A stretch of DNA of 64,000 bases from assembly GCA_029865385.1 (NCBI GenBank), contig JAOUGX010000010.1, positions 1 through 64,000 on the forward strand. The letters run 5' to 3'. This document shows, one piece after another, positions 8,324-56,712 of this stretch (position 1 is its first letter; each line of letters opens with the position of its first letter). A program made the position numbers and the translations under genes. Under the pieces are notes generated by a model that was given only the letters and a program-made list of their open reading frames with translations, made no database searches and was not told the origin of the DNA. This DNA is from Gammaproteobacteria bacterium. Its GTDB lineage: Bacteria; Pseudomonadota; Gammaproteobacteria; Steroidobacterales; Woeseiaceae.

Positions 8324-8400
8324 CGGGGTGTAGCTCAGCCTGGTAGAGCACTGTCTTCGGGAGGCAGGGGCCGGAGGTTCAAATCCTCTCACCCCGACCA
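8324..8400 (+). tRNA. tRNA-Pro (anticodon CGG)
   Basis: A 77-base cloverleaf with encoded CCA. The acceptor stem is CGGGGTG / CACCCCG. The anticodon stem is CTGTC / GGCAG around loop TTCGGGA, so the anticodon is CGG with G37, as in tRNA-Pro reading CCG. The T arm is GGAGG-TTCAAAT-CCTCT. An integrase gene begins nine bases beyond the CCA end, and partial copies of this 3' half recur at 13648, 49327 and 56512, marking it as an integration site. Confidence 0.96.
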
Positions 8401-8408
8401 ACTAGTCC

Positions 8409-9554
8409 TTAAACGTCAACGGCTTGCAAGTGATCTACCCGACTGCTGCCATTTTGTGTGACGGATTGTGTGAGAAACGTGTGAGCTGCGACCCGTAAAA
8501 CGGTGTTCGCTCGTCGTTCACACACTTTCTCCGCCGCTTCAATCAGCCTAGCGACATCCGGTGCTGAGTAATGCGTCGTGATCCGCTCGGACTTGTGTCC
8601 GAGCAAATCCTGACGATCCTCGAAACTCACGCCCGCCGCTCGCAGCCTGTGCCCGAAGGTATGGCGAAGATCGTGCACGCGAAACCCTGGCAGGCTTGCC
8701 CGGTCCCTCGCCCTTCGCCATGCCGAATTGAGCATGTTGAACAAGTGATTGCCTTTGTACGTGAAAACGAACTCGCGGTGCTTTCCCCGCTGTTCGTCGA
8801 CCACTTGCCGTGCAATCGAGTTCAACACCACGATTCGCTCCTGAAAGTTTTTCGTTTCGAACTGGTCGTTGCTCGGCAGCACAAACACGCTCGTCATCAG
8901 CTCCGGAACCTTGACCTCCCAGTCCCAGCGCAGCTGACACACTTCCTGCTCCCGGCAGCCGGTGTTGACCTTGTACAATGCCATCCGCTGCAGGTGCCCG
9001 GGTAACTCCTTGAACAATCGATCCTGTTCTTCCCAGCTCAGCGGATAGGGTTTCCGTGCCGGCCCCTGTTCCATCTCGATCAATGGCGGTGCGTCCAGGT
9101 AGGACATGCCGTTGTCGTGGCGCCAGACCCTGGCAGCCAGATTCAGGATCCGCCGAATGCAGCTCAACTCCTTATTAATGGTCCCGGCCGTCACCCCGTC
9201 CGCGCGACGGGCTTTGCGGTACTGCGCCAGCGTATCGTTGTGAATGCGATCGAGGGTCAGATCGCCGATGTGCGGCATAATGCGATTGAAGGCGTACACG
9301 TCCCGGTCCAGACTCTTCTTGTGCTGATAGTCGTTGAGATACTTGATCGCTGCCTGCTCAAACGTCCGTGTCGGTCGAATGCCGTAGACCACTGCCTGGC
9401 GAACTTCGTTGAGGCGGTGCGCTAGGTAGCGTTCCGCTTCGTCGAGATTATCCGTGCTGCAGCTTTCCGCCAGTCGTCCGTACCCCTTGATTCTCTTGTC
9501 GATCCACCAGATGCGGCCTCTTTTCTTGAGGCCCGGTGATTTTTTGCGTCCCAT
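8409..9554 (-). CDS. Tyrosine recombinase / integrase next to tRNA-Pro
   Basis: Site-specific recombinase expected to integrate and excise the element at tRNA-Pro. The 381-residue protein has the full catalytic set: Arg201 in TGCREQEVCQLRW, HDLRH at 294-298, Gly-His320 in LLGHKS, and the nucleophile Tyr329 in THYSA. The N-terminal ~150 residues form a core-binding domain. Its 3' end points at the tRNA, nine bases away, the usual position of a tRNA-targeting integrase. Its start overlaps the upstream HTH gene by 133 bases. Confidence 0.95.
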   Translation of the reverse strand: MGRKKSPGLKKRGRIWWIDKRIKGYGRLAESCSTDNLDEAERYLAHRLNEVRQAVVYGIRPTRTFEQAAIKYLNDYQHKKSLDRDVYAFNRIMPHIGDLTLDRIHNDTLAQYRKARRADGVTAGTINKELSCIRRILNLAARVWRHDNGMSYLDAPPLIEMEQGPARKPYPLSWEEQDRLFKELPGHLQRMALYKVNTGCREQEVCQLRWDWEVKVPELMTSVFVLPSNDQFETKNFQERIVVLNSIARQVVDEQRGKHREFVFTYKGNHLFNMLNSAWRRARDRASLPGFRVHDLRHTFGHRLRAAGVSFEDRQDLLGHKSERITTHYSAPDVARLIEAAEKVCERRANTVLRVAAHTFLTQSVTQNGSSRVDHLQAVDV

Positions 9555-9781
9555 AATTCACTCCTTTTGGCGGAACGCCCGTTGCGGGAGACATACTCGT
9601 CCACCCAGGCGTCGAGTTCAAGCCGGTCGAAAGCAATGCCCTGCCGACCGATGGGAATGCTGGTGAGAAAAGGCCGGACTTCCGCGTTGAAGCGATTGCG
9701 GTCCATGCCAAGATAATTCGGAGCATCACGAAATCGCAGCAATCGCGGCAGCATGTCGGTCGCTGTGCGTGCCGGTTTCAT
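9422..9781 (-). CDS. Small HTH protein, AlpA/excisionase-like
   Basis: 119 residues. The first ~70 look like a MerR/AlpA-type DNA-binding domain: a helix (RFRDAPNYLGMDRNRFNAEV), the turn IPIGRQGIAFDR, then LDAWVDEYV, as in excisionase/AlpA proteins that recognise att DNA or regulate integrases. The last ~45 residues overlap the integrase gene in another frame and are rich in Arg and Ser. Its ATG overlaps the stop of the second integrase by four bases (ATGA), so all three genes should be translationally coupled. The excisionase role is inferred from fold and position. Confidence 0.75.
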   Translation of the reverse strand: MKPARTATDMLPRLLRFRDAPNYLGMDRNRFNAEVRPFLTSIPIGRQGIAFDRLELDAWVDEYVSRNGRSAKRSELWDAKNHRASRKEAASGGSTRESRGTDDWRKAAARIISTKRNAT

Positions 9782-10740
9782 CGCCCCAGGTACACTGCCG
9801 AGATCGCTTCGCGGGCGTGACCGAGTTCGGCGCTGATCGTGGCTCGCGCTGCGGCATCAACCGCTCGTTGTTCCGGGGATTGATCCTTGGATGGCAACCC
9901 ACCCGCCGCTGGACAAACCCGTTCGGTGAGCACGACATAGCGGCGTTGGGCGTAGGCGTGGCGCAATCCGTGCAGACGGGACAGGCCTGCGTTGGCTGTC
10001 TGCTTTTCGTAGCGATGCAGCTGCTGGACGTAGTTCAGGTGGGGCGGTATTAGAGCACCGCCCCTGGTTAGCGTCCTGACTGCGTCCAATAGCCGGCGCT
10101 GGTCCTCATTGGTGACTGGGACGATTCGTGCACGACCTCCCTTGGTCCAGTTTGCTTTAAGTCGGATGTGGTCACCCTGCATGGCATAGGTCGGCTGAAA
10201 CTTGATCGCCTCTTCGCGTCGCAGACCGAAGGCTGCTTGCAAGCGCACGCTCATGCGAACGTGTTCGTCTTCGATCTTCGCAAGCATCGCCTGGTCCAGA
10301 ACCTGCGCTTTCGATTCTTTTGCAACGTACGTTCGTGATCCAATGCCGTAGGCCGTGTTATCCCGCGCCATGATGCTTTGCCGGTTGACCTTCTGCGCCC
10401 ACCAGCGAAGTGCCGATAGTCGGTTTTTCAATGTTCCGGTTTTGATTCCCTCCTCGCGCCACTGCTTGACCAGGGCCTCGACGTGTTTTGGCTTCAGCGA
10501 CGTGGCCTGCATATGCCGGTAGCCCAGCGCGTGCAGCTGATTGGCGCTCAGGTCCAGAATCCGGGACCGGGCCGTTTGCGTCGCGTAGCCACCGTCTTTG
10601 TTTTGACGGCAAAGTTTCATTAGCTCGTGGTTCAGGTTTTTCACGGTGCATACCTTCTCGTCGGTGAGTTTCGATGACCACTCCGCATCCGCGAGGATTA
10701 CGAAGTCCGATTTTTCAATCGGGTAACGGTCGCGGGACAC
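9778..10740 (-). CDS. Second tyrosine recombinase (Integrase_1 type)
   Basis: 320-residue recombinase of a different subfamily from its neighbour, resembling the phage integrase N-terminal plus Integrase_1 architecture. Catalytic residues are Arg174/175 in FGLRREEA, HGLRH at 257-261, Gly-His308 in ELGHAR, and Tyr317 in AVYLGR. It ends almost immediately after the tyrosine, so the C-terminal helix swapped between protomers is very short. It is the first gene of the int2-HTH-int1 set. A stem-loop array lies 126-268 bases upstream of its start. Confidence 0.9.
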   Translation of the reverse strand: MSRDRYPIEKSDFVILADAEWSSKLTDEKVCTVKNLNHELMKLCRQNKDGGYATQTARSRILDLSANQLHALGYRHMQATSLKPKHVEALVKQWREEGIKTGTLKNRLSALRWWAQKVNRQSIMARDNTAYGIGSRTYVAKESKAQVLDQAMLAKIEDEHVRMSVRLQAAFGLRREEAIKFQPTYAMQGDHIRLKANWTKGGRARIVPVTNEDQRRLLDAVRTLTRGGALIPPHLNYVQQLHRYEKQTANAGLSRLHGLRHAYAQRRYVVLTERVCPAAGGLPSKDQSPEQRAVDAAARATISAELGHAREAISAVYLGR

Positions 10741-11435: not shown

Positions 11436-12188
11436 GTGAGACCACTACCCATTGCGCTAGTCGCTTGTTGGCTGGCTCCTTCATCGTTCGCAGAGCCTCC
11501 CGAACTATTGGCCTCGGTGCCGGACGATGTACGAGCGATCGTTGAGGCTGCTAACCCATACTTTTTGGCCAAAGAGACGTACTTTGCAAAGCAATACCGC
11601 ATTGTAACCGTCAACGCACTGCTGCTACTGACGGCCGAGAAGTTCAAAATCTCGCTATTCGATGACCAGTCGATCGTACTTGAGGTAGACAGCGTGGACG
11701 TCCATCCAAAGGGCTTGACGATTGCTTGGAACGGACATTTCGTTGAGCCAACCGTATCGGTGGCTGATCTCGGGGCCGCTGAGCTATCGCTTGAGGAGGC
11801 AAAAGCGCTTCTTCCAGAACTCCACAGAGTAGGGATCTTTGCAGCGCAGGTCAGCTTCGATGAAACGTCTCGAATAAAGTATCAGCACGACTTCGCCCGA
11901 TTCAAGGAGTTTCATGCCCGCGGTGAACCGGCTCTCTACGACGTTGTTTTCTTGTTGCAGACCGTCGTCCTGCCGAAGGCTTATGAGCTTCGGCCACTCG
12001 CGTCGGCTCCGCAATACCACGTACTTCTTGAATGGGATCCAGAGAAGGCCTTCTCGATACCGACAGAGTCTGACCCCGATTTTACTGCTTCGGAGTCAAA
12101 CGAAAATCGAGTCAAACGGGAACGGTATCGTGATTTTCTCGATTCACTGGGACCGGATCCGCGGCCGGCAAACATTCACGAGGAATAA
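11436..12188 (+). CDS. Exported protein of unknown function, partner of the metzincin gene
   Basis: 250 residues, family not recognised. It starts with a signal peptide (MRPLPIALVACWLAPSSFAE, cleavage probably after SFA). The mature part is acidic and shows no Cys pairs, repeats or catalytic motifs that I can name; hydrophobic strands such as NALLLLTAEKFKISLF suggest a globular beta/alpha protein. Its stop is four bases before the GTG of the metzincin gene, so the two form an operon. A processing or inhibitory role for the protease partner is possible but only inferred from adjacency. Confidence 0.7.
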   Translation: MRPLPIALVACWLAPSSFAEPPELLASVPDDVRAIVEAANPYFLAKETYFAKQYRIVTVNALLLLTAEKFKISLFDDQSIVLEVDSVDVHPKGLTIAWNGHFVEPTVSVADLGAAELSLEEAKALLPELHRVGIFAAQVSFDETSRIKYQHDFARFKEFHARGEPALYDVVFLLQTVVLPKAYELRPLASAPQYHVLLEWDPEKAFSIPTESDPDFTASESNENRVKRERYRDFLDSLGPDPRPANIHEE

Positions 12189-12192
12189 CAAC

Positions 12193-13479
12193 GTGAGAAG
12201 AATAATTCTGGGCTGCCTGGCATTCGGCACTTTACTTCTCAATGGCGATTTACCTGCTTCGGTCGGCAAGCCCGCGTCAACTCCCCAAGAGACGGTCATC
12301 AGAATTCTTCTTGTCGCCGATAACCGGCTCTCCGGTGCAGACATCACGGCGGCCAAGAACTTTCTGATGAATGCTTGGCTCAGCACCGATTTCGGCGGTA
12401 TGAATCTACCAACGGATGTTGCCTTCGCCAACAACGGGAATCACCTCTCCGTTGGCACCACGGTGTTTTCCGGCGACGATGACGAGCAAGCCGACAAGCT
12501 CAGGGTCTGGGTCGAGGACATCGCGCCGCCCGCCGCAGTGGGCCGGCGGGATTTTCACGGTGCAGATGTGGTTATCGGGCTGTCATCAAAGTTTGACAAC
12601 GCTAGCTGCGGTCATGCCGTGCAAGAGAACTGGAAAGGTTTTAACCCGGGGTTTGTACAGGATGCCAACGGGCTCGATCTTCGCGGAGCTAACCGTGACT
12701 ATGTCGCTGTCGCCCAGATTGTGGGGCATACCTCCTGTCGATACTACTTAGGTGCGCACGAATTTGGCCACCTATTGGGGGGTGGTCATCGTGATCAAAT
12801 ATACGGTTTCAATGGAGGCTTGCTCCCCAACAGCAAGGCTCACCGCCTTACCGTTAATCCCGGCGGCGTCCAAAAACAAGTAATCACTGCAATCGGCCAT
12901 GGCCCGCAAACAGTTGACTGCCCGTCTTCAGATCCAGCGCACTGCAACCATGTAGGTAGGTTCAGTGGGTTCGCAACTGCGAACAATAACGCCGAGGCAT
13001 TCAACGTTACCGCTAGGTCAGTCGCAAACTATCGTGGGCCCGCCATGCCGGTTCAGCCGGCCACATGTTCGGACGGGATCAGCAACGATGGGGATAGTCT
13101 CGTCGACTCCGCCGACCCGGACTGTGCTGTGTGCAACCAGGAGGTGTGCCCGAGCAACCCGAATCCACCATCGTGCAATGCGACGACGCCGCCCATTGGC
13201 ATGATCGGATGGATAACGCAAATCTGCTATCCGGATCCTACAGGAGGTACCCTCTATCAAATAGTGTGGGCTCACGCATGTCCTGGGCAAGTAAGTTTCT
13301 ATGAAGTCTGGGCTGCCCAACCGACATCAAATCCATACACGTACAGGTGGACAGTTGTGCCGCCGACCACAAGTGCGGTTGTCTACGGATCATCAGCACG
13401 GATTAAGGTCAAGTCATGTGGTACGGGAGGTTGCTCCGCGTTATCAAGCTCGAATTTCTTGGCAGTTGACTTGTGCTGA
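12193..13479 (+). CDS. Secreted metzincin-type zinc metalloprotease
   Basis: 428 residues from a GTG with GAGGAA seven bases upstream; the longer open frame upstream overlaps the preceding gene and is not used. A signal peptide precedes about residue 24. The zinc site is HEFGHLLGGGH at 189-199, the extended HExxHxxGxxH of metzincins, so His189, His193 and His199 should bind zinc and Glu190 catalyse. I see no clear Met-turn after it. Farther on, CSDGISNDGDSLVDSADPDC is a Ca-binding-like Asp/Gly motif, and a Cys-rich C-terminal domain ends the protein. Substrate unknown; it is cargo of the tRNA-Pro element. Confidence 0.85.
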   Translation: MRRIILGCLAFGTLLLNGDLPASVGKPASTPQETVIRILLVADNRLSGADITAAKNFLMNAWLSTDFGGMNLPTDVAFANNGNHLSVGTTVFSGDDDEQADKLRVWVEDIAPPAAVGRRDFHGADVVIGLSSKFDNASCGHAVQENWKGFNPGFVQDANGLDLRGANRDYVAVAQIVGHTSCRYYLGAHEFGHLLGGGHRDQIYGFNGGLLPNSKAHRLTVNPGGVQKQVITAIGHGPQTVDCPSSDPAHCNHVGRFSGFATANNNAEAFNVTARSVANYRGPAMPVQPATCSDGISNDGDSLVDSADPDCAVCNQEVCPSNPNPPSCNATTPPIGMIGWITQICYPDPTGGTLYQIVWAHACPGQVSFYEVWAAQPTSNPYTYRWTVVPPTTSAVVYGSSARIKVKSCGTGGCSALSSSNFLAVDLC

Positions 13480-13647
13480 CGCCGAGCGGGTCAAGCGAAT
13501 GTGGCCGTCGTGGTTGTCATTCGAAGAATCTGGTATGTATGAAAATTGTGTGACTGAGCAGTGCACGGTCATGCTCGGTACTGCAGTTGCAACGGGCGCC
13601 TTGCGCCAGACTGTTAATTAAAACAAATACTTAAAATACGAAATCCG

Positions 13648-13741
13648 TTTTCGGGAGGCAGGGGCCCTCCCGATATATACACGGCAACAATCGAATACCT
13701 GCCGACACTTTTGGAACGGTTCAAATCCTCTCACCCGACCA
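13648..13741 (+). other. tRNA-Pro-derived attachment-site remnant with a 51-base interruption
   Basis: 13650-13666 repeats the anticodon-loop to variable-region part of tRNA-Pro (TTCGGGAGGCAGGGGCC). 13718-13741 repeats the T-arm and acceptor end (GGTTCAAATCCTCTC then ACCCGACCA, one C shorter than the tRNA). Between them are 51 bases where the tRNA has three. There is no 5' half, so it is not a functional tRNA. It marks the far end of the 8.4-13.7 kb element. Confidence 0.85.
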
Positions 13742-14675: not shown

Positions 14676-14682
14676 CCGCTAC

Positions 14683-15822
14683 TCAATTAGTTCGACCGGG
14701 ATTTGGACCTAACGCAAGGCCCCAGGGCATATCGCCAACCTTGACTCGCGCAATCACCGTAAACGTTTCAATATCGACCACCGAGACATCATCGGAAGGC
14801 CCGTTCGCAGTATAGAGAAAACGCTCATCGTTGCTGAGCACGATCCCCCATGCGCGCGGGCCGACCTCTACGGACCGCAAAATTTGAAGCGACTCCAGAT
14901 CTATCTCACTGACCGTCTGTCCGCGCCCATTGGCCACGTAAAGTCGCCGGCCGTCGGATCGAATGGCCATTCCTACCGGTTTTGCAGCATCATCCAGTGC
15001 AATCTTTGCAGCAACCGTATGGCTCTTGACGTCGATTACTTCTATCGAATGACCAATTTCTGATGACACGTATGCGCGAGAACCGTCAGGCGCGAAAACG
15101 ACGTCGCGTGGTCTGAGACCCACGCCAATTGTCGCGATGACGGCACCGTTATCGGCATCCAGCACCGTGACATCGTGGTCCGTTTCACCGGTAACGTAAA
15201 CGACCCTGCCATCCGGACTGATACGAATACCTTCCGGCTCGCGACCGACATCAACGATTTGCAGGATCTCGCCGGTTTCGATATCCACAATGGTGGCCTG
15301 ATTGGAGTCTTCATTTGAAACATATAAGCGCCGGCCGTCGGTATTCAGGTCAAACTGTTCGGGATCCGAACCGCCAGGCAATACGCGTTCCAGCCGCGCC
15401 GTTCGAACGTCAACTACGGCAATGCCATCTTTGCTTTTGTCTGTAGCTAAACTCTCACATTCTTCATCAGGCATCGTTGGGGGGCATTTCGGTGATCCGG
15501 ACAATGCTACAAACACCTTGTCCCCAATGCCATTGACCTTGATTCCGCGGGGTCGACGGCCCACTTCCAGTGTAGTTACGACCTGATTGGTCGCCGTCGC
15601 AATGATCGATATGTCTCCGGAATCTTCGTTACTGACATAGATCAAATCGCCATCGGCAGGCCATGCGATTTCAGCACGCTGCGATGGGCTGGTTTCGTTT
15701 ACGTCGGGTTCCAGTGACGCATTTTGTTGACTTGGCTCACGCTCACAACCTACCAAGCATGAAAGTACAAGGAGACATGGAAGGAAGAGAATTAGTTGTA
15801 CTTCGTGCCGTTCGCTACTCAT
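14683..15822 (-). CDS. YVTN beta-propeller lipoprotein of the PQQ-catabolism type
   Basis: 379 residues starting at MSSERHEV (15822; AAGGA SD nine bases upstream). A lipoprotein signal ends in LVLSCLVGC, so the protein is predicted to be membrane-anchored in the periplasm. The rest is seven or so propeller blades with motifs such as LYVSNEDSNQATIVDIETG, VYVTGETDHDVTVLDAD and LYTANGPSDDVSVVDIET. It matches the PQQ-dependent catabolism-associated propeller group found beside quinoprotein alcohol dehydrogenases. One blade has an insertion with two Cys (SPKCPPTMPDEECES). Its role is unknown; it may help electron transfer or enzyme assembly. Confidence 0.85.
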   Translation of the reverse strand: MSSERHEVQLILFLPCLLVLSCLVGCEREPSQQNASLEPDVNETSPSQRAEIAWPADGDLIYVSNEDSGDISIIATATNQVVTTLEVGRRPRGIKVNGIGDKVFVALSGSPKCPPTMPDEECESLATDKSKDGIAVVDVRTARLERVLPGGSDPEQFDLNTDGRRLYVSNEDSNQATIVDIETGEILQIVDVGREPEGIRISPDGRVVYVTGETDHDVTVLDADNGAVIATIGVGLRPRDVVFAPDGSRAYVSSEIGHSIEVIDVKSHTVAAKIALDDAAKPVGMAIRSDGRRLYVANGRGQTVSEIDLESLQILRSVEVGPRAWGIVLSNDERFLYTANGPSDDVSVVDIETFTVIARVKVGDMPWGLALGPNPGRTN

Positions 15823-16108
15823 TATTAATCCTTCGGTTGCAACACGCCGCATACATCTATAGGTGTTTCGACCCGGAATACTGGCGATTTTAACCCATGC
15901 CAAGCTTGTGCGGATAGCTATCCGGCGACTCGCGAACTATTTTCAAGGATTATTCTTGTTTCAAACTGATTGAATTTAGTCTTTTTTATGCATATCAGCT
16001 TCGCTGCAATGCCGCCCGAGCGAAGTTAACAGCCAGGAATTCGCAACAAAAACGATGCTTCAAGCGTATTCAATTGGGAACGCATGCCGCCAGATCGTGT
16101 TTCGTCGC

Positions 16109-16642
16109 TTACTCGCGGTGGAGCGTCTTTTCAGGACGTCCCGGCGCCAGCGCACCATCCGCTCTCGCTCTCAGGTAGGCGTAAATATCCAGCACATGTG
16201 GTTTGACGTTGCGGTCCGCCTCCCACCCGGGCATGAGGATCTCTCCGCGCTCACGACGCAATACCTGCTCAAGAAATGCATCGCGTAATTCGGTTTTGTC
16301 GTCACCACCGGTTGCCCGTTCGCTGACCGTAATTCGATATCGTGACAATACTTTTACGCTGAAGTCTCGCGCAGAAAGGTTCCGAATCTTCTCGACCAGG
16401 CTTGGGGCAACGCTGGTACCGGTAGCATCGACACCGTGACAACCGTGACAGGTTGAGTGATAAATTCGCCAACCCAGGTAAGTCGACTCATCGACCCTCC
16501 CATCCTCTATTTCATAGGGCAGATTTTCACCTGCCGCGGCGATGCTTGACGTTATAGCCACAACGACACCAAGTGAAACAGCCCTTATCATCGCGAATGG
16601 AGATCTCAGGGAATTTAGATCGAATTTTGGGATTCCGAGCAT
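16109..16642 (-). CDS. Periplasmic c-type cytochrome, PQQ-dehydrogenase partner type
   Basis: 177 residues with an N-terminal signal segment (hydrophobic ~19-38) and one haem site CHGCH at 65-69. The distal ligand is probably the Met in EILMPGWE. The C-terminal KPHVLDIYAYLRARADGALAPGRP closely resembles that of the cytochrome at 26489-27058, so the two are paralogues, as in cytochrome c550/XoxG-like electron acceptors of alcohol dehydrogenases. I kept the first Met because AGGA lies about five bases upstream; Met18 is an alternative. It stands apart from the two PQQ genes, so which enzyme it serves is not shown. The region 15823-16108 upstream of the propeller gene holds nothing else I can identify. 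Confidence 0.88.
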   Translation of the reverse strand: MLGIPKFDLNSLRSPFAMIRAVSLGVVVAITSSIAAAGENLPYEIEDGRVDESTYLGWRIYHSTCHGCHGVDATGTSVAPSLVEKIRNLSARDFSVKVLSRYRITVSERATGGDDKTELRDAFLEQVLRRERGEILMPGWEADRNVKPHVLDIYAYLRARADGALAPGRPEKTLHRE

Positions 16643-16775
16643 ATTCCTAGGTTAACGAAATGGAGCCAGTACTGCTATCAGTGAAACTACTTAAGTGAAT
16701 GCCGTTTGTCGTCCGCCGATCGCCAAATCGGTATTTGCAATGAACAAGTATTCGGACTTGATATTTCTTTGCGTA

Positions 16776-17192: not shown

Positions 17193-17258
17193 GCCCGAAC
17201 CCTCTTGAAAATCGACGATGACTTAGATCTTTTTTCTGCCTGGGAAATACAGGAAGTT

Positions 17259-17681: not shown

Positions 17682-17783
17682 CTTTAAGATTCCTCATTAG
17701 GCACGACCAATGCCTCACGATAGCACTTCCGCGGTATACTTCAAAACATCGCGTGCCGTAGGGACTTGAATGCTTTGAAAATC

Positions 17784-49294: not shown

Positions 49295-49326
49295 GTAAGC
49301 TCTTGATTATAAACGAGTGTCTAATT

Positions 49327-49349
49327 GTCTTCGGGAGGCAGGGGCCCTC
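49327..49349 (+). other. Left half of a tRNA-Pro-derived attachment remnant
   Basis: Positions 49326-49346 match the anticodon-loop to variable-region part of tRNA-Pro (8352-8372) over about 21 consecutive bases. The next bases (CTCTCG) resemble the start of the 51-base interruption in the remnant at 13648, not the tRNA. The T-arm half is not found at the expected distance; the nhaC coding end lies there instead. Confidence 0.8.
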
Positions 49350-49365
49350 TCGCGTCTTTGTCCGC

Positions 49366-50904
49366 TTACAGGAAACTGACAAATGCGATTAGCACGTACA
49401 ACACCATCGAGATGCCTGCGGCCAGCAATGCCAGAGGTAGCTGGGTCAGAACATGGTCCATCAGATCTGCTCCGCACGCCATGGCCGACAAGACAGTAGT
49501 ATCCGAATAAGGCGAACATTGATCGCCAAACACCGCACCGCCAAGAATAGCGCTAAAATTCAACACGAAAAACAGCGGATCCGGGCTGATCGTATAAGCG
49601 AGGGGCAACGCTATCGGGTACATCACCGCATAGGTTCCCCAGGACGATCCGATCGAGAACGATACGAACATACAGACCAACATTAGCAGGCCGGGAAGTA
49701 TGTAAGGCACTTGCTGCAGGATGCTGCTCGAGTTTTCTACGACAAAGACTGCCGCACCCAGTGACTCGGACACATTGCCGAGTGTCACCGCAAGACCCAG
49801 TATCACAGCGCCGACAGTTACACCCTTGATGCCATTCAATACAGCCTCGAATACATCGTGGACCGGCATGCCGCGCATTGCAGAAAGGAGCATCGCCGAC
49901 AGGACCGACAGCCCGAACGCCTCGAATATCATCGGCGATCCGCCCAGCAGCCACGGCACAATGGAGAAACCAAGCAAGACTGACATCGGCAGAAAAAAGT
50001 CGATCAGTGACGGACGATAGTAGTCCGGTACCTCGGCCTCGTTTAACTCCGGCGACAGTAAGGGTTGCGCCCCCGGGCGATTCAATTGATGCGTGCTGCT
50101 GGAGCGCTCGATCGCAGCACGCATTTTCGCGCCTACCCAGAACATTTTGTCCAGCGACAGCAACAAAGTAAATGTCACGGCGATCAGCGCGTAGAAATTG
50201 AAAGGTATCGCCTTCAGGAACCAGGCTATGGCGCTTTCCTGATCCGGCACCATGGGGCGGAGTGACTCGATCGTGATCAGGCCCGCGATGTAAGCAGGCC
50301 ATACGTTGAACGGAATTACAGTTGCTATCGGGGACGCCGTTGAATCAACGACGTATGACAGTTCTTCATGCGAAACGTACTCACGATCTGCAACCGGTTT
50401 GACCGTAGTCCCGGTCAGGACCGTGCTAATCGTTCCGCCCTGGTGAAAGATGACGCCCATGATCCATGCGAATACCTTTGCTGAACGCCGGGAGCGAACG
50501 AATCTGTTTGCGGCTGTAATCGCGAAGTGCTGTGCGCCGCCGTTTTTGTTCCAGATTCCGATGAGGCCACCAAGTGCCCACAAGTAGACCAGAAGGATCT
50601 GCGCATAGCGCTCGCTACCCAGGCTTGGAATCAGGTAAGCGTTGACGACGTTGTATTGGCCGGTAACGACACCACCCAGTAGAACGCCACAAAGAAGACC
50701 CAGCAAGACGTTTTTTGTCCAAAAAGAAATAATGAGAGTTGCGAGTGCCGGAGCAAGAGACAACAATCCGTAATGCTCGGAACCGCCACTCGTCGCCTCG
50801 GTGTTCGCTATCGCCACACTGGTGCAGATGACCAGTGACGATACGATCAGGACCTGTCTCCAGTCAGTCCAACGTGCGAATCTGAAGTAGTTGTCGAAAT
50901 TCAT
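49366..50904 (-). CDS. NhaC-family Na+/H+ antiporter
   Basis: 512-residue inner-membrane carrier with 10-12 helices. Family sequences include GGLIGIWNKNGG, FHQGGTISTVLTGTTVKPVADR, FSIGSSWGTYAVMYPIALPLA and GGAVFGDQCSPYSDTTVLSAMA, typical of NhaC and the related YheL/arginine-lysine antiporter superfamily. Sodium/proton exchange fits a marine bacterium, but amino-acid exchange is not excluded. Its 3' end abuts the tRNA remnant at 49327. Confidence 0.85.
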   Translation of the reverse strand: MNFDNYFRFARWTDWRQVLIVSSLVICTSVAIANTEATSGGSEHYGLLSLAPALATLIISFWTKNVLLGLLCGVLLGGVVTGQYNVVNAYLIPSLGSERYAQILLVYLWALGGLIGIWNKNGGAQHFAITAANRFVRSRRSAKVFAWIMGVIFHQGGTISTVLTGTTVKPVADREYVSHEELSYVVDSTASPIATVIPFNVWPAYIAGLITIESLRPMVPDQESAIAWFLKAIPFNFYALIAVTFTLLLSLDKMFWVGAKMRAAIERSSSTHQLNRPGAQPLLSPELNEAEVPDYYRPSLIDFFLPMSVLLGFSIVPWLLGGSPMIFEAFGLSVLSAMLLSAMRGMPVHDVFEAVLNGIKGVTVGAVILGLAVTLGNVSESLGAAVFVVENSSSILQQVPYILPGLLMLVCMFVSFSIGSSWGTYAVMYPIALPLAYTISPDPLFFVLNFSAILGGAVFGDQCSPYSDTTVLSAMACGADLMDHVLTQLPLALLAAGISMVLYVLIAFVSFL

Positions 50905-51055
50905 GATTGCAGAACCTTCGAATAGTTCTGGCTAGCCGAGCACCGCCGACCAAAGACGCCTCAAGCACTGCCGATGCGGGCAAGCTGTTGTAGTAGAACG
51001 GATTGGAGAAATAGTAAGCGCTGTATCATGAAGCATGTTGTAGTCAACGTCCATT

Positions 51056-51176
51056 TTGACCACGGATTCAAAGGAGGCTCTATGCAGTCCTGTAACGTGG
51101 ATTCGCATTGGCTTAATCATGATCTTGTGTGGCAATCGTGCAGAGTCTGACGCCAGCGAGACCACCGACAAGCAAA
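51056..51176 (+). pseudogene. Possible lipoprotein gene remnant
   Basis: AAGGAGG at 51071-51077 stands five bases before an ATG at 51082 whose frame gives only 22 codons. A frame offset by one base reads WIRIGLIMILCGNRAESDAS, like a lipoprotein signal with a lipobox, and then runs into the end of the barrel gene. Together they suggest a frameshifted, truncated gene. The remainder of 50905-51176 shows nothing else. Confidence 0.3.
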
Positions 51177-52463
51177 TCAAAAATACCAGGCGAGTTGTGC
51201 AAACACGGCAAGGTCCGTGGAGACGTATTGATCCGGCAGGCCGCTTTCAATTCCGCCGTACTCGGTACCCTGCGGGCCCATCGGTATACTCAGCGCACCG
51301 AGAAACGTTGCGTTGTCGCCAAGGCTATATTGCGTGACGATCTGAAAGAACGCACTTTTGTCATCAAGGTTGGCGAACAGATTCGGCGTCAAGGTCCACA
51401 GCGGCGTCATCTCGACCGTTATGCCGCCGGCGAGATAATTCCGCCCAAGCGTGAACAGCTCGCCTCTTGAAATTCGTCGCAGCAGCTCCGCGTTTTCCGC
51501 AAGGCCCGCGGCATCGTAATGTCCGCCTCCGATGCCGAAGCCGCTGTAGTAATACTCGACTACACCGCTGACGTTTTTCCCAAGCCAGGTCCACGAGTGG
51601 TTGAGATTGGTGACGAGCTGTGCGGTAGCCGACGAATCGTGCAGGGTGACAAGGACATCGCCCCGCCACACGGCACCACCGAGATCGCGATTTCCGCCAA
51701 TACCGAACATCGTGTCACCGTAGCTGCGCGCAACGAGTGCATCGAATTCTCCGTTGCCGACGATGCCGTGGTACTTGACCGATAACGTGCTTTGGGTCGA
51801 TTCAGGGTCGCCCGTTAGCGGATCGCGGCGGAAAACGACCGCAGCCTGTATGTCATGGCCATTTTTTCTCAGGTACTGGCCGTACAACATGTCGTCGCCG
51901 GCTTTGTATTCCGTGTCGATTGCCGTCGGATCGAAGGGATTGACGATATCCATCGGCGAAAAAAAGAAGCCGTTGCCCCAGGTAATAGCCTGGCGTCCGA
52001 CACGCAGCACAGTGCTGTTGCCGGTGTAGTCGAACCAGAGCCGGTCCAGGCGATGCAGGGTCGCGAATTCTCCATCGTCGCGAATGACACTGGTCAGATC
52101 CAGCAGGCGCCGCCGGTCGTCGGGCAGGCGGTCGCCAGTAAGGCCGGCCGTGAACGAAATATTCCTGGAATACTCGATGCGATCGCCGTGAAGAGCAAAC
52201 AACTGGTAAGAGCCTTGCACGGCCCACGGGCCTTGCTTTGCTTCCAGGTTCAGTCGCAGATCCGTTTCGATATCGAGCGCAGACGTTCCCGTCAGCTCAT
52301 TGAAAATGCTGTCGTCCGGAAACCAGTGGCCAAAGACCCTGCCCTTTGTATGGCCATCGAATTGATACTCCGTCTCATCGGCGTGGCCAGCTCCAGCCAA
52401 CAGCAGCGCGGCAGCCGCGAGAATCAGCGTTGAACTACGCAGCCTGCTGATCGATATCGTCAA
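51177..52463 (-). CDS. Outer-membrane beta-barrel protein of an ABC/LolA-like operon
   Basis: 428 residues from the TTG at 52463, 28 bases inside the ATPase end; the longer frame upstream lies wholly inside that gene. A signal peptide (STLILAAAALLLAGAGHADE) is followed by barrel strands such as WAVQGSYQLFALHGDRIEYS, RVGRQAITWGNGFFFSPMDIVNPF and GVVEYYYSGFGIGGGHYD, ending in the aromatic FAQLAWYF. RQAITWGNGFFF is a motif seen in DUF1302-like barrels. As the last gene of the operon it may be the outer-membrane component of the transport system. Confidence 0.75.
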   Translation of the reverse strand: MTISISRLRSSTLILAAAALLLAGAGHADETEYQFDGHTKGRVFGHWFPDDSIFNELTGTSALDIETDLRLNLEAKQGPWAVQGSYQLFALHGDRIEYSRNISFTAGLTGDRLPDDRRRLLDLTSVIRDDGEFATLHRLDRLWFDYTGNSTVLRVGRQAITWGNGFFFSPMDIVNPFDPTAIDTEYKAGDDMLYGQYLRKNGHDIQAAVVFRRDPLTGDPESTQSTLSVKYHGIVGNGEFDALVARSYGDTMFGIGGNRDLGGAVWRGDVLVTLHDSSATAQLVTNLNHSWTWLGKNVSGVVEYYYSGFGIGGGHYDAAGLAENAELLRRISRGELFTLGRNYLAGGITVEMTPLWTLTPNLFANLDDKSAFFQIVTQYSLGDNATFLGALSIPMGPQGTEYGGIESGLPDQYVSTDLAVFAQLAWYF

Positions 52464-53127
52464 CGATTCGCCCGTCCAGCATCTTGATGAGCCGTTTCGC
52501 GTATCCCATGACACGCTGATCGTGCGTGGCAATGACGAAGGTCGTGCCGTGCGTCTTGTTCAGCTGCACGAACAGCTCCATCAATGCATCCGAGGTCTTC
52601 GAGTCGAGATTGGCCGTAGGCTCGTCCGCGAGCACCAGTGCCGGGCGCGACACGATGGCACGCGCGACGGCGACTCGTTGCTGCTGGCCGCCGGACATCT
52701 CGGCCGGTCGCCGATCTTCCAGTCCCTGCAGGCCGACTTCTTTCAGAATCGCCATCGACTTCTCGGCGCGTTGGCCGGCGGGAACGCCCTGCACCTGCAT
52801 GACGAATTCGACGTTCTCCCTGGCCGACAGCACCGGCACCAGGTTGTAAGCCTGAAACACGTACCCGATCTTGTGCAGGCGCAAGTTTGCAAGTTCGCCT
52901 TTGCCGAGGTTGTCGATACGTTTGCCGGCAATCCAGACTTCGCCGCTATCCGGAATATCCAGCCCGCCAATGGCATTCAGCAGCGTGGTCTTGCCACCGC
53001 CCGACGGTGCGGACAGGCAGACGAAGCCGCCCTCCCCGATATCGATACTGGCATGATCGAGCGCCTTGATCTCCTGGTCGCCTTGCCGGTAGGTCTTGCA
53101 CAGTTCGATACACGTCACCGCAGTCAT
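52435..53127 (-). CDS. ABC transporter ATPase, LolD/MacB-like
   Basis: 230 residues with Walker A APSGGGKTT near 40-48, Q-loop YVFQAYNLVP, signature MSGGQQQR, Walker B LVLADEP and H-loop ATHD. These place it with LolD/MacB/FtsE-type ATPases of mechanotransmission transporters. It is encoded two bases after the second permease in a five-gene run. The substrate is likely a lipoprotein or lipid-like molecule because a LolA-like gene leads the operon. Confidence 0.93.
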   Translation of the reverse strand: MTAVTCIELCKTYRQGDQEIKALDHASIDIGEGGFVCLSAPSGGGKTTLLNAIGGLDIPDSGEVWIAGKRIDNLGKGELANLRLHKIGYVFQAYNLVPVLSARENVEFVMQVQGVPAGQRAEKSMAILKEVGLQGLEDRRPAEMSGGQQQRVAVARAIVSRPALVLADEPTANLDSKTSDALMELFVQLNKTHGTTFVIATHDQRVMGYAKRLIKMLDGRIVDDIDQQAA

Positions 53128-53129
53128 AA

Positions 53130-54359
53130 CTAAACCTTCGTAATTGCTTCAATAGGGTCGTAGCGCGATGCGCGCCAGGCGGGCGAAAGGCTGGCTATAG
53201 AGCCCAGAATGAGGACGACGACGTTTGCCAATACCACGTCGTGCGCTGTCAATTGCGGATAAAGCAAGCTGCTGGCGCCGAACATCTCCATGCCCGCGGC
53301 AACGACGGAGATGTCAATGCCATCGCGCAACCAGTAGACGGTTGCACCTGCGAGCACGTTGCCGATAAGCAGCCCGAGCAACAGCAACAGCAGCGACTCG
53401 ATGACGATCTGCAACAGGATACTTGTCGGACGCATGCCTAGCGCCATCATCAAACCGATTTCACGAACGCGCTCGAAAACAGCCATTACCAACGTATTGA
53501 CCAGTCCGAATGAAAGTGCCAGAAACACGACGATCATCCACACCAGCACGAATCCATCCATTACCGTCATCATCGTGCCGAGGTAACTGTCCACCTCGTA
53601 CCAGGGCAGCACTTCGACACCCGGGCCGACCAGATCGGTCACTTTGCGCACAACCGGGTCGACATTGCGGTAGTCGTCGCCCAGCACGACCACTTCGTTG
53701 ATGCGGTCCGGGACGTTCAGCATTTTCTGGATGGCCGACTTGCCCGCAAAAAGCATTGAGGTCTCGTAGGCCTCGAGCCTGGCCTCGAAAATACCGACGA
53801 TACGAAAGCCACGGTCCGCGATTTCGTTATCAGGGTCCTGGCTCATGATGACAATCCGTTTACCAAGTTCCGTTTCGAGATTGTCCGCTAGCTTCCTGCC
53901 GATCACGACGCCGCTGTCGTCTGCGTCTTCGAGAAAGCGTCCCTCAACGATGTCACCGGCTACGAAAGTGATGTCCCTTTCGCGGACGGGGTCGATACCG
54001 TAAAGCGTGATCCCGCGCGAATCCCGTTCGCTCGTTACGACCGCAGGTACCCTGATGCGGCCGGCCCAGGCGTCGAAACCGGCCGCATCGAAGGATGCGG
54101 TAACGTCCTCGTCTTTCATTGGCAGCAAATTGTTGATGCCCGGATCGTCAAGGAACCCGCGCCCGTGAATCTGAACGTGACCCGGCAGCGCGCGAATGCC
54201 GTCGCGGACCATTTCGTTGACCATGCCGCGCATCAGCGCCGTCATGAAGATCATGGCCCAGACGCCGATCGTTATTGCGCTGATCATGATGATCGTTCGG
54301 CGATGGTTTCGCCAAAGATTACGCCAAGCGAGCGTCGACATGATTCTCAGCATGTACAT
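53130..54359 (-). CDS. FtsX-like ABC permease (second)
   Basis: 409 residues with the MacB/LolC plan: one helix at the N-terminus (TIIMISAITIGVWAMIFMTALM), a large periplasmic domain (about 45-270) and three helices near the end (VWMIVVFLALSFGLVNTLVMAVFERVREIGLMMALGMRPTSILLQIVIESLLLLLLGLL). Its ATG shares one base with the stop of the preceding permease (TGATG), so the two should form a heterodimer served by the ATPase. Confidence 0.9.
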   Translation of the reverse strand: MYMLRIMSTLAWRNLWRNHRRTIIMISAITIGVWAMIFMTALMRGMVNEMVRDGIRALPGHVQIHGRGFLDDPGINNLLPMKDEDVTASFDAAGFDAWAGRIRVPAVVTSERDSRGITLYGIDPVRERDITFVAGDIVEGRFLEDADDSGVVIGRKLADNLETELGKRIVIMSQDPDNEIADRGFRIVGIFEARLEAYETSMLFAGKSAIQKMLNVPDRINEVVVLGDDYRNVDPVVRKVTDLVGPGVEVLPWYEVDSYLGTMMTVMDGFVLVWMIVVFLALSFGLVNTLVMAVFERVREIGLMMALGMRPTSILLQIVIESLLLLLLGLLIGNVLAGATVYWLRDGIDISVVAAGMEMFGASSLLYPQLTAHDVVLANVVVLILGSIASLSPAWRASRYDPIEAITKV

Positions 54360-55588
54360 CAGGCCGCCCTCATCGCGGCCACCGGCTGCAACCAGTGTAG
54401 CCGCATCGCGGGATAAATCGCTGCAAGCAGCGTGAACAGGAAAACGATTCCCGGCCCGGCAATGAGCGTTAGTGCCGAAACCTGCGGATACATCCTGGAC
54501 GGAAGATTGAACTGCCCGGCCATTTCCTCCATGCCGGGCACGTAGATTCCCTTTACCGTAAACAGACTGGTCACGATTCCGCCCAGCACCGAACCCATGA
54601 CAAGCCCGACGAGCCCCATCAGGGCCGTTTCCAGCATCACCAGCCGGCCAAGCCGTCCCGGAGTCAATCCGAGTGCCATCACAATGCCGAATTCCCGGGT
54701 TCGTTCCAGAACCGACATCAGCTGCGTGTTCAGCACGCTGAATGCCACCAGCACTACCAGCACCGCGTACATGAAAATGGCGCTGCCCATGTCCGCCTGG
54801 ATGGCCTGCCGAAGACCAGGCTGCAGGGCGTTCCAGTCATGCACCACGAGTTTGCTATCGGCAGGCAGCAACGCATTTGCCTGCTGAACCAGCTGTTCCG
54901 TTTTCGAATAGTCGCCGGCATTGATGACAATCTGGTGCGCCGCGCCCTGCATGTCGAACGTGTCCTCGAAATAACCGATTGGCACTTCCGCGATGCCGCG
55001 GTCCAGTTCCTTGTTGCCGCCGTGAAATACGCCGACGACGGTCACGATGCCCGCGGCGATCGATCCGTCACGCCCGCTGCCGAGAAGAGTCAGTTCACCG
55101 CCGATCGATACGCGCAGATTCCGTGCCAGCACGGAACCGATGACAATTTCCGCTGCGTTCGCATCGTCGAGGTAGCGGCCTTCCTTCGTCAGGCCGGGCA
55201 GGCTCGAGACTCCGGGCTCGAACATCGGTTCGACGCCGAGTACCTGTATGCCGTAGCTGCGGTCTTCACTGGAGGCCAATGCGAAGGCCGCGCCCCGCGC
55301 GGAGACGGTTTGCAGATTCAGCCCTTCCCGCACCGACGCCGCCAGCGAAATCGCGTCCGGCACGACCTGGCGCATCTTCAGGTCGTCCTTGTAGCCCGGG
55401 GCCTGGATCTGCAGGTGCCCTGTCAGCGCCTCAAGCGTGTTGTCGATCATCAGGCCATATGTGCCGATCTGGATTGAAATCATGAACACCAGCAGTACGT
55501 TGGAAAAAATCATGGCGCCGGTTGTCAGCCAGGTGCGGCGCGGATAGCGCCACAGGTTTCGCCAGGCCAGCCGCAGAACGATATTCAT
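54359..55588 (-). CDS. FtsX-like ABC permease (first)
   Basis: 409 residues, same plan as the next permease and similar in sequence: N-terminal helix (MIFSNVLLVFMISIQIG), periplasmic domain, then three C-terminal helices with VFSVLNTQLMSVLERTREFGIVMALGLTP. The matching length and order suggest that the pair arose by duplication. It follows the LolA-like gene by 12 bases. Confidence 0.9.
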   Translation of the reverse strand: MNIVLRLAWRNLWRYPRRTWLTTGAMIFSNVLLVFMISIQIGTYGLMIDNTLEALTGHLQIQAPGYKDDLKMRQVVPDAISLAASVREGLNLQTVSARGAAFALASSEDRSYGIQVLGVEPMFEPGVSSLPGLTKEGRYLDDANAAEIVIGSVLARNLRVSIGGELTLLGSGRDGSIAAGIVTVVGVFHGGNKELDRGIAEVPIGYFEDTFDMQGAAHQIVINAGDYSKTEQLVQQANALLPADSKLVVHDWNALQPGLRQAIQADMGSAIFMYAVLVVLVAFSVLNTQLMSVLERTREFGIVMALGLTPGRLGRLVMLETALMGLVGLVMGSVLGGIVTSLFTVKGIYVPGMEEMAGQFNLPSRMYPQVSALTLIAGPGIVFLFTLLAAIYPAMRLHWLQPVAAMRAA

Positions 55589-55600
55589 GCCGTGCGCAAC

Positions 55601-56362
55601 TCAGTTGCGCGGATTGCGCAGATTGGACTGTGTAAAGACGTTATCGTTAAGCTCGACGCCGTACTCGATTGCATCAATACGCACTTCCGTCCACTCATCC
55701 GGTTCGTCAACCTTGCCCATGCGTTGCCGAATGGCAACGCTTCGACCTCCCATTTCGCCGATCTCCAGCGAGGTCAGTTTCTTGACCAGCATGCCGTCCT
55801 GATCGTAAAACTCGTGTCCGATCAGGACGTAGTCGTCCCGGACGGTCAGCACTTCCTTGCCCCAGACGACCGCCGCATCTTCGTGCGGAACCGACTGGAT
55901 TTCATAAGTTACGTGACCGCCGGCTTCCGTCGTGCCGATCAGATTGTGTTCGTATTGGTCAACGATGTCGTCCGATCGGGAGATATCCTTGTTGGAGAAG
56001 TCCGACCCCATCCAGCTCTGACTCATCATCGATGACGGAATCTTGATGACGCGGTTCACTTTCGGACTGTAGGTCCACATCGTGTTGTCGATCATCAGCG
56101 TGCCGTTGCCTCGATCCTTCTGCGGCTCCGTCACTCTCACCAAAGTACGTTTGTCGCCCTCGGTCCAGCCGCGCATGGACATCGTGCGCTGCCAATCGGG
56201 GCGGTGAATGATCATGGTCATCTCCGAATAGGATGACGTGCCTCGCCAGTGATCTATGGCGCCACGGACGATCTCCGCGGCATCGGGCTGCTGCGCGCTC
56301 GCAGCCAGCGGGTGCGCCAGGAGCGAGATGACAACAGACAGAATTGCCGATTGTTTAGCCAT
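55601..56362 (-). CDS. Outer-membrane lipoprotein-sorting (LolA-like) protein
   Basis: 253 residues with a signal peptide (ILSVVISLLAHPLAASAQQ). The rest is the LolA-like half-barrel fold: SEMTMIIHRPDWQRTMSMRGWTEGDKRTLVRV, then DNTMWTYSPKVNRVIKIPSSMMSQSWMGSDFSN, a signature of the YP_3368/PF17131-type outer membrane lipoprotein-sorting group. As first gene of the operon it probably carries the hydrophobic cargo of the ABC exporter across the periplasm. The cargo is unknown. Confidence 0.85.
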   Translation of the reverse strand: MAKQSAILSVVISLLAHPLAASAQQPDAAEIVRGAIDHWRGTSSYSEMTMIIHRPDWQRTMSMRGWTEGDKRTLVRVTEPQKDRGNGTLMIDNTMWTYSPKVNRVIKIPSSMMSQSWMGSDFSNKDISRSDDIVDQYEHNLIGTTEAGGHVTYEIQSVPHEDAAVVWGKEVLTVRDDYVLIGHEFYDQDGMLVKKLTSLEIGEMGGRSVAIRQRMGKVDEPDEWTEVRIDAIEYGVELNDNVFTQSNLRNPRN

Positions 56363-56511
56363 ATATATGTCCTACGATAAGCGCACAGGGATCCGGGCAC
56401 GATACGTTTTGACCGCAACACCATCGAACGCTTTCGAAACACACCGTACGCGATTGTTCTTATTCGTGATAGTCTTGTAAGTGATTGAAAACTAACAAGA
56501 GCCGAAACGAA

Positions 56512-56603
56512 TTCGCGAGGCAACGGCCCTGCTGGTCGAGACTGGCGACCAACCGACTGTTTCCGCGTGTGGCGAGTACGGTTCAAATTCTTTCACTCCG
56601 ACA
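56512..56603 (+). other. Degenerate tRNA-Pro-derived attachment remnant
   Basis: 56512-56528 (TTCGCGAGGCAACGGCC) matches the anticodon-loop/variable part of tRNA-Pro with three changes. 56580-56603 (GGTTCAAATTCTTTCACTCC then GACA) matches its T arm and acceptor end with a few changes. As at 13648-13741, exactly 51 bases separate the two blocks. It is the rightmost and most decayed remnant. The rest of 56363-56712 shows no gene. Confidence 0.7.
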
Positions 56604-56712
56604 ATATTTTCTACAAACATTCATCATTAATAGTCCCGGTCGAAAATGCCGCGTAGCCTTGGGCGGTTGATGCGAACAACCAAGCATTTGATAGCCGATT
56701 CTGGAGACTGAC

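Follow-up and report, generated by a model that had tools for sequence, protein, structure and literature searches.

Apparent stacking of mobile DNA blocks behind a single tRNA gene in a marine-type bacterium

Genomic islands often sit at tRNA genes. The locus analyzed here, a 64,000-nucleotide stretch of a Woeseiaceae genome (contig JAOUGX010000010.1; hereafter, the window), poses the question of how three displaced 3' halves of tRNA-Pro(CGG) came to lie behind the intact gene, and why two of them are interrupted by inserts of exactly the same length. It appears that mobile DNA blocks are stacked behind this one tRNA gene, and we consider it fairly probable that these are stacked islands whose displaced tRNA halves were damaged by insert modules that tend to fix the islands.

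A tRNA-Pro gene and its displaced halves

The only tRNA called by ARAGORN in the window is tRNA-Pro (cgg), and the obg-ispB-tRNA order on its left is kept in relatives, where ispB adjoins the tRNA. Behind its 3' end, and in its orientation, lie the displaced 3' halves, remnants 1 to 3 (Table 1). An earlier sequence-only reading had placed the gene and the remnants at these coordinates and in this orientation, and both are borne out; it spoke of four copies, and four tRNA-Pro segments are indeed present, but one is the intact gene, leaving three displaced halves. Read directly, remnant 1 consists of the block TTTTCGGGAGGCAGGGGCC, 51 bases and the block GGTTCAAATCCTCTCACCCGACCA, and its acceptor run is one C short (CACCCGACCA versus CACCCCGACCA); in remnant 2, the left block is followed by CTCTCG...; remnant 3 is more decayed than remnant 1, with a spacing of, again, exactly 51 bases. 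The observations that 3 bases of the tRNA correspond to 51 in the first and last remnants, and that all three read CT instead of GG after GGCC, were exact, and the agreement of the two middles, put by eye at about 22 positions, computes to 22/51, a value reached by 0.17% of 20,000 shuffles. With remnant 1 as the query, the window's own genome yielded the tRNA and the other remnants on the contig (E 3.5e-4 to 0.67), and nothing beyond these below E 2.3.

Table 1. Positions of the features discussed, within the window
Feature	Position	Strand	Basis or remark
obg	3580-4599		left flank of tRNA-Pro(CGG)
ispB	5606-6811		left flank of tRNA-Pro(CGG)
Intact tRNA-Pro(CGG), integration target	8324-8400	+	ARAGORN, Rfam
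Right (P'-type) arm, tRNA-proximal island	8401-8436	+	alignment to L093 arm
IntA, tyrosine integrase	8409-9554	-	PF00589 E=2.9e-17; phrog_1 integrase
IntB, second tyrosine recombinase	9778-10740	-	PF12834/PF12835
First-island cargo, putative M12-like metallopeptidase (weak)	11914-13479	+	PF13688 E=0.0019, below its cut-off
Left (P-type) arm of remnant 1	13608-13649	+	match to arm at L042:3615
Remnant 1, displaced tRNA-Pro 3' half with 51-base module	13648-13741	+	
51-base module, remnant 1	13667-13717	+	ungapped in alignments A2 and A4
Second block, 35.6 kb	13742-49326		PQQ alcohol dehydrogenases, TonB receptors, pyruvate carboxylase
Left arm of remnant 2	49288-49329	+	match to arm at L100:1419
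Remnant 2, displaced tRNA-Pro fragment, left part only	49327-49349	+	right part lost
Third block	49366-56362	-	Na+/H+ antiporter family protein, ABC/MacB-FtsX, LolA-like genes
Left arm of remnant 3	56472-56513	+	match to arm at L100:1419
Remnant 3, decayed displaced tRNA-Pro 3' half with 51-base module	56512-56603	+	
51-base module, remnant 3	56529-56579	+	alignments with relatives' copies

The 3' end of the IntA gene abuts that of tRNA-Pro, and its PF00589 match (8556-8993) lies inside the first interval, beside the tRNA. Full-length IntA relatives (84-85% identity) are found 12-14 bases from tRNA-Pro(CGG) in L194 and L195, and L196 has a near-full one (90%) at a distance of 11 bases. IntB lies beside IntA or an IntA remnant in L090, L109, L099 and L098; IntA remnants occur at distal sites in L090, L092, L098 and L107, whereas that of L093 adjoins the tRNA. 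Similarity between the att-type sites starts at TTCGGG, and the crossover region of tRNA-Pro(CGG) is likely the anticodon stem-loop, CTGTCTTCGGGAGGCAG. Against an acidic double-disulfide repeat, the product of the first-island cargo gene scores 36.4 bits, short of the cut-off of 41. The best relatives of pyc (71%) and of the fadJ-like gene (63%) are both in G027, which belongs to a different family of the same order. On L202, an antiporter homologue (63%) was dropped as shared cargo because it lies on the opposite side of the tRNA from the integrase.

Arrays and insert modules in the relatives

In Woeseiaceae genomes, such sites form same-orientation arrays behind tRNA-Pro(CGG) and tRNA-Arg(CCG), often accompanied by the integrase subfamily of IntA. 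Each of the three remnants in the window has a left arm that matches arms in relatives: 35/42 identical positions for remnant 1 (null maximum 24), 33/42 for remnant 2 (null maximum 25) and 26/42, with a 2-base shift, for remnant 3 (maximum 24 for shuffled sequences and 22 for random 42-mers of the window); the right arm of the tRNA-proximal island aligns with a score of 28 against a null maximum of 21. The arrays, the integrase and the left-arm matches together uphold the earlier proposal that the remnants are att copies of stacked islands. Against it stand the second and third intervals (13742-56511), with no PF00589 match at E <= 1e-5, and the right arms, which, compared with those of relatives, are not above chance after remnant 1 and marginal after remnant 3 (22 against a null maximum of 21). 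The earlier reading had named an empty site in relatives, with ispB and fadJ near each other, as a check. On the left side, ispB lies beside the tRNA in relatives; the stretches of relatives examined contained no such empty site, no fadJ-like gene downstream of tRNA-Pro and no shared right flank. The stretches from G004 and G017 represent the ispB side of an apparently inverted tRNA-Pro and are uninformative on the right flank; in G089, a 45% homologue of the fadJ-like gene lies on the 5' side of tRNA-Pro.

Among loci picked for a site or tRNA match, rather than all genomes, 34/54 displaced tRNA-Pro copies and 18/36 tRNA-Arg copies are altered, including 14 and 4, respectively, with the right part lost or unrecognised within 170 bases; 20/54 and 18/36 are plain. 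These counts follow removal of a non-tRNA match in L056 and merging of duplicates (Pro rows 82 to 79, Arg 49 to 45), and remnant 3 of the window, which fails the 2-mismatch cut-off, is outside them. L212, a plain tRNA-Arg island of a sister integrase, is bounded by two identical 45-base copies that run from the anticodon loop to CCA and lie 10.6 kb from each other. The blocks between neighbouring sites are mostly short, with 36/48 under 5.5 kb (one pair, L284 and L289, apparently identical); PF00589 was found in at least 8 of the 43 blocks from genomes covered by the search, and some blocks hold integrase remnants and resemble decayed islands. Toxin-antitoxin families were matched by 3/8 of the cargo proteins scanned, from 36 extracted.

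Two kinds of modules occur among the altered copies. The fixed-length one, with a signature of mostly GGCC, 51 bases and GG, separates the variable loop from the T stem in displaced halves. It is represented by 14 ungapped copies: eight in tRNA-Pro, all of exactly 51 bases, one in tRNA-Arg and five at non-tRNA sites; it occurs without a tRNA in G089:C33, G010 and G070. Its ends are conserved, and in module-free versions, it is replaced by 3 bases at three comparable site types (Pro, Arg, G089). Model R1 matches remnant 1 (13664-13721, E=3.4e-9) and remnant 3 (56526-56583, E=6.5e-10), both sequences being part of the model. Model R2, searched with strict filters that can miss weak copies, matches 11/396 genomes of the order (E <= 0.001), all Woeseiaceae, of which eight supplied training sequences; the matches in the remaining three are partial. 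The module of G093 is found on the chromosomal side, ahead of a terminator resembling that behind relatives' tRNAs, and therefore may predate the island.

The shuffles, the model matches and the ungapped recurrence in relatives reject a chance origin of the 51 bases. The sequence-only reading had taken the equal spacing as evidence of one ancestral 94-base element; it was right that the spacing is not a matter of chance, but the two outer blocks together make up the displaced tRNA half, whereas the 51 bases form a separable module that also occurs at a tRNA-Arg site and at non-tRNA sites. Occurrence far from tRNA genes, which it had set against its own proposal, pertains to the 51-base part only, in few genomes. 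A tRNA intron is rejected, as the module was found in none of the 25 tRNA-Pro and nine tRNA-Arg intact genes sampled (two of the latter, L281 and L295, look like one gene in two near-identical genomes). These genes are free of GNA-loop hairpins, too. A folded hairpin is rejected as well, with fold z-scores of -1.4 to 1.1 for 13 sequences under RNA and DNA parameters; the consensus structure of eight module sequences has little covariation. At its own thresholds, Rfam matched tRNA as the sole family in seven sources; a search around one site at E 1 gave no match.

The second module, of very variable length, consists of GNA-loop hairpins, which many displaced copies in Woeseiaceae have in their T loop. 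In 25 inserts, 41/51 three-base-loop hairpins have GNA loops, where 0.6 are expected. Such hairpins also follow tRNAs in genomes that have no island at that place, and they occur at other positions as well. A REP-type transposase was considered as the agent of the modules and found unsupported, PF01797 being present in only 4/7 of the carrying genomes checked.

Lock-in and its rivals

In the scenario that we favor, islands would have entered the anticodon loop of tRNA-Pro(CGG) one after another, the place of the crossover and the order being our reconstruction; each island's own 3' half would restore the tRNA, and the old 3' half would move to the far end of the island. The remnants are such displaced halves, and in Woeseiaceae these halves carry modules at fixed places. 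An island with a module-bearing half at its far end would, on leaving, break the tRNA, so that, with the inserts, excision would come at a cost and the island would tend to become fixed; lock-in would also be the reason why the modules persist. When the flanks of 12 hand-chosen sites were joined in silico as by excision, no tRNA was predicted at 8/8 altered sites, and a tRNA was predicted at 3/4 plain sites. Insertion-type damage of the displaced halves may, we infer, lock islands in. Against lock-in, however, the many plain copies have to be counted, as well as the tRNA-Pro(TGG) and tRNA-Pro(GGG) also encoded in the genome, because of which loss of the CGG tRNA may be tolerated; furthermore, with hairpins away from islands and the 51-base module away from tRNAs, neither module is specific to locking. 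We regard as doubtful a scheme of gene capture by Woeseiaceae at tRNA-Pro(CGG) and tRNA-Arg(CCG), whereby a tRNA-side integrase takes short integrase-less blocks and the modules, being exchangeable, are a ratchet that renders every capture irreversible, since leaving would destroy the tRNA; many of the blocks that would be captured hold one or two genes.

The main rival accepts a real stack but takes the 51-base module and the hairpins for functionless parts of a family-wide mosaic (BIME-like) repeat, which settle wherever a tRNA 3' half escapes selection. This is possible, if on the unlikely side: it accommodates the hairpins behind island-free tRNAs and at other places as well as the 51-base module without a tRNA in three genomes, and inserts would simply be cleared from working tRNAs, but a length of exactly 51 bases in all eight tRNA-Pro copies, together with a 3-base replacement shared by three site types, suggests that settling was not just random, and the patchy presence of the REP-type transposase does not favor it either. 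That the modules are working att parts, for example, providing spacing or a bend for IntA or IntB, would fit their position between the core and the right arm, and the fixed length and conserved ends of the first one; given that plain sites are common, that the complete island L212 has a plain site and that the second module varies so much in length, we find this highly improbable. Chance similarity or an assembly artefact as the origin of the remnants is barely credible: remnant 2 is short, remnant 3 decayed and the genome is in 198 contigs, but the same kind of sites, arms and module recur in other Woeseiaceae genomes.

Integron arrays are one-orientation rows of small cargo blocks with hairpin-bearing sites, the attC boxes RYYYAAC / GTTRRRY and some toxin-antitoxin genes. 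The relatives' arrays share the small same-orientation blocks and the hairpin sites, so rich in GNA loops, and, in part, the toxin-antitoxin matches, and PF00589 is listed for a minority of their blocks, so one could think of cassettes bearing attC-like hairpin sites, which an integrase acting in trans would capture at the tRNA. This is improbable, and integron membership proper is rejected: the integrase is not IntI (TIGR02249 20.3 bits, cut-off 265), attC R-box pairs occur at 0/21 sites (mean in shuffles 0.065), and the integrase remnants in some blocks resemble decayed islands.

Comparison with known systems

In E. coli, the tyrT 178-bp repeats (RtT RNA) lie behind a tRNA and contain its 3' end. 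The hairpin-bearing tRNA trailers of the relatives resemble these repeats; in the loci searched here, Rfam matched tRNA only. Among the matches listed in a literature search that covered subscription journals and bioRxiv thinly, there was no report of such arrays or of the 51-base module. One fixed-length insert in the displaced halves of two tRNAs would offer a direct test of island lock-in, and its signature, mostly GGCC-51 bases-GG, could serve to find decayed island borders, such as remnant 3, that searches for plain tRNA repeats can miss.

According to the portion of the Islander paper considered, Islander-type islands share with the window an intact tRNA, a same-orientation displaced 3' fragment, a tRNA-side tyrosine integrase, an anticodon-centred site and tandem stacking (PMC4383910). 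There, a tandem is counted only if no member lacks an integrase and a tRNA fragment of its own, and the 3919 islands listed include 4 tandems with at least three members (PMC4383910). In the window, by contrast, no integrase is recognisable in the later blocks, and insert modules are present in displaced halves. In the tRNA-linked flexible islands and tycheposons of Methylophilaceae, as here, tRNA-end repeats mark additive islands, and another island type has a tyrosine recombinase at a tRNA; however, those repeats are plain 20-base tRNA-Lys repeats, with no insert modules mentioned in the accessible sections of that article (PMC10872708). The closing parallel is damage itself. Deletion damage of displaced tRNA fragments has been described for islands and for PICIs, at least in the excerpts consulted (PMC4383910, PMC10111431), and for PICIs, an addiction-like role of the damaged fragment was proposed, such that, as here, excision from an altered attR would leave a bad tRNA (PMC10111431). 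PICI damage, as presented in those excerpts, is a deletion from one acceptor-stem position (PMC10111431), whereas here a 51-base module or T-loop hairpins have been inserted: in remnant 1, one C of the acceptor run is missing, but the main change is the 51-base insertion.

A stack of tRNA-Pro islands

The window contains a real stack of tRNA-Pro islands, as the sequence-only reading had proposed, and our reading of the three displaced 3' halves (remnants 1 to 3) agrees with the positions it gave. It had also claimed an equal 51-base spacing in two of them, with agreement at about 22 positions: in remnants 1 and 3, exactly 51 bases do take the place of the tRNA's GGA, and 22 of the 51 are identical between the two middles (shuffle fraction 0.0017). 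With remnant 1 as the query against the window's own genome (3.92 Mb, 198 contigs), only the window's contig matches below E 2.3.

Positions of features in the window and at one locus of a related genome
Feature	Positions	Strand	Remark
MFS transporter gene	6849-8099		between ispB and tRNA-Pro
tRNA-Pro (CGG)	8324-8400		sole tRNA in the window
IntA	8409-9554	-	tyrosine integrase (PF00589, phrog_1), abuts the tRNA 3' end
Remnant 1	13648-13741		displaced tRNA-Pro 3' half
Remnant 2	49327-49349		displaced tRNA-Pro 3' half, left part only
Remnant 3	56512-56603		displaced tRNA-Pro 3' half
L097 (G089:C11)	15257-17753		fadJ-like (45%) and thiolase (63%) homologues, 5' side of tRNA-Pro(CGG), opposite the island array

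Different sites share the 42 bases to the left of the core. Compared with 51 distinct arms from other genomes, the left arms of remnants 1, 2 and 3 reach 35, 33 and 26 of 42, respectively, against maxima of 24, 25 and 24 in 300 shuffles and of 23, 23 and 22 in 300 random window 42-mers; element borders therefore lie left of all three remnants. The right arm scores 28 behind the tRNA (null maximum 21), marginally behind remnant 3, and no better than chance behind remnant 1.

The left flank, obg and ispB, adjoins tRNA-Pro in many relatives, where ispB lies directly beside the tRNA without the MFS transporter gene; in two loci (L236 of G004 and L234 of G017), the orientation of the tRNA-Pro match (85-86%) to ispB is apparently the reverse of that in the window. 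Within the window, PF00589 matches in the first block only. The second block encodes two proteins of the PQQ alcohol dehydrogenase type (only one of which passes the TIGR03075 cut-off, the other scoring below it), TonB receptors and a pyruvate carboxylase, Pyc, whose best relative (71%) belongs to another family of the order; biotin-carboxylase-like matches to Pyc in two congeners, both incomplete genomes, reach only 43-44%. Right of remnant 3, a fadJ-like gene, below both the FadJ and FadB cut-offs, has its best match (63%) in that same other family and at most 56% in its own, so that the stack may extend past 56.6 kb.

Integrases and attachment sites across the family

The nearest relatives of IntA are found in MAGs labelled Woeseiaceae or Gammaproteobacteria. 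Among 35 loci with IntA relatives, the matched integrase end has a tRNA within 200 bases in 19 and at a greater distance (281 and 913 bases) in two; no tRNA is seen in the other 14. Next to tRNA-Pro(CGG), at a distance of 11-14 bases, are the closest tRNA-linked relatives (81-90%, including some fragments); next to tRNA-Arg(CCG), 45-66 bases away, are those at 80-82%; and those at 40-64% have tRNA-Met, -Phe, -Arg(ACG) or -Lys nearby. One locus, L212, is a complete plain island, in which a perfect 45-base copy lies 10.6 kb from tRNA-Arg, and in four others (L090, L092, L098, L107), IntA remnants adjoin displaced sites, as expected of stacked, decaying islands.

The pattern TTCGGGAGGCAGGGGCC, with one mismatch allowed, is present in 49 of 107 family genomes, often several times per contig in a single orientation, and the tRNA-Arg(CCG) pattern in 59 of 107. 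After removal of duplicates, the fetched loci yield 79 tRNA-Pro sites, of which 25 are intact tRNAs and 54 are displaced halves. Among the latter, 20 are plain, 9 have T-loop hairpins, 5 the 51-base module with hairpins, 2 the module alone, 3 a T-arm deletion and 1 another change; the remaining 14 have a right part that is missing or went unrecognised. The 45 tRNA-Arg(CCG) sites (9 tRNAs, 36 displaced halves) include 18 plain halves, 12 with hairpins, one with both modules, one with a deletion and 4 with the right part lost or unrecognised.

Array blocks are mostly short (36 of 48 under 5.5 kb), and three of eight cargo proteins scanned match toxin-antitoxin families. In four tRNA-Arg arrays (L189, L278, L280, L281), successive tRNA-Arg 3' halves enclose blocks of some 0.7-1.5 kb that encode Gp49-type toxins, an HI1420-type antidote or nucleotidyltransferases.

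Two modules in the displaced halves

The 51-base module, between variable loop and T stem, aligns without gaps in its eight tRNA-Pro copies, which share 21 to 38 of 51 positions pairwise (shuffle fraction 0.013 for the weakest pair). Further copies, picked up by a sequence-only model, lie at a tRNA-Arg(CCG) site of G115 (GGTC, 51 bases, GGTTC) and, in G089, G010 and G070, at sites of a third, non-tRNA type, with no tRNA in the stretches fetched around these. All 14 copies used align gap-free, preceded by GGCC (12), GGTC (1) or AGCC (1) and followed by GG (12) or AG (2). In G089 the non-tRNA site occurs in two forms, GGTGGCC-51-GGCGGA when it has the module and GGTGGCCAGGGGCGGA when it lacks it, so that three bases stand in place of the 51, as at other sites. 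Model R2 of the module matches 11 of 396 order genomes, every one in the window's family, 8 of which had supplied training sequences. Partial modules adjoin REP-like repeats with CCCGCTCCTAC(A) in G075 and G069 (L157, L159, L170, L172). A 104.5-kb contig, G089:C33 (L180-L185), contains several direct-repeat families with units of roughly 40-160 bases, almost all of them pointing the same way; they include GNA hairpins and, in part, the 51-base module. The contig has no tRNA and no PF00589 match at E <= 1e-5.

The second module consists of hairpins in the T loop: 25 inserts contain 51 three-base-loop hairpins, 41 of them with GNA loops, where the expectation from shuffled sequence is 0.6. With one hairpin insert as the query, the window's genome gives only weak matches (best E 0.099). 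By eye, six loci (L122, L124, L052, L144, L142, L138) have, behind tRNA genes, a terminator-like hairpin, a degenerate inverted tRNA 3'-end copy, and then a direct copy with T-loop hairpins, sometimes in tandem; the form of these trailers resembles that of the E. coli tyrT repeats. At L139 (G059:C20), also by eye, a hairpin chain interrupts the T loop itself of a tRNA-Gln-like gene, and no normal acceptor end follows.

Loss of the predicted tRNA and proposed lock-in

We simulated excision at 12 chosen sites by fusing the 5' part of the tRNA with displaced halves. No tRNA is predicted at the joined sites of the window (via remnants 1 and 3), G093, G089 (two sites), G061, G111 and G078 (hairpin site), nor in G011, where the half is plain but its T loop is changed; those of G065, G082 and G078 (plain site) retain a predicted tRNA. 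The element borders, the integrase, the module with its fixed position and the loss of the predicted tRNA are thus results of the analysis. Beyond these, we propose that crossover would occur in the anticodon loop, that the islands would have integrated one after another, and that the locking-in of islands would be the reason why the modules persist. The window's genome also carries tRNA-Pro(GGG) and tRNA-Pro(TGG), so that a cost of losing the CGG tRNA is not a given. The main rival to lock-in is that the modules are neutral repeat debris. Some genomes that lack an island behind a given tRNA nevertheless have related hairpin chains at that place, accompanied by another copy of the tRNA 3' end, and such chains are present at other places too. 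Neither module occurs in any of the 34 intact tRNAs sampled.

The stack is a known kind of object; the form of damage in its displaced halves is unusual and reproducible. In published work, displaced tRNA fragments have suffered deletions, and one paper suggests that such damage renders excision harmful in the manner of an addiction (PMC10111431); Islander counts 148 of 3919 islands with damage (PMC4383910). The same logic fits the window's sites, although modules are inserted here, whereas the published damage is by deletion.
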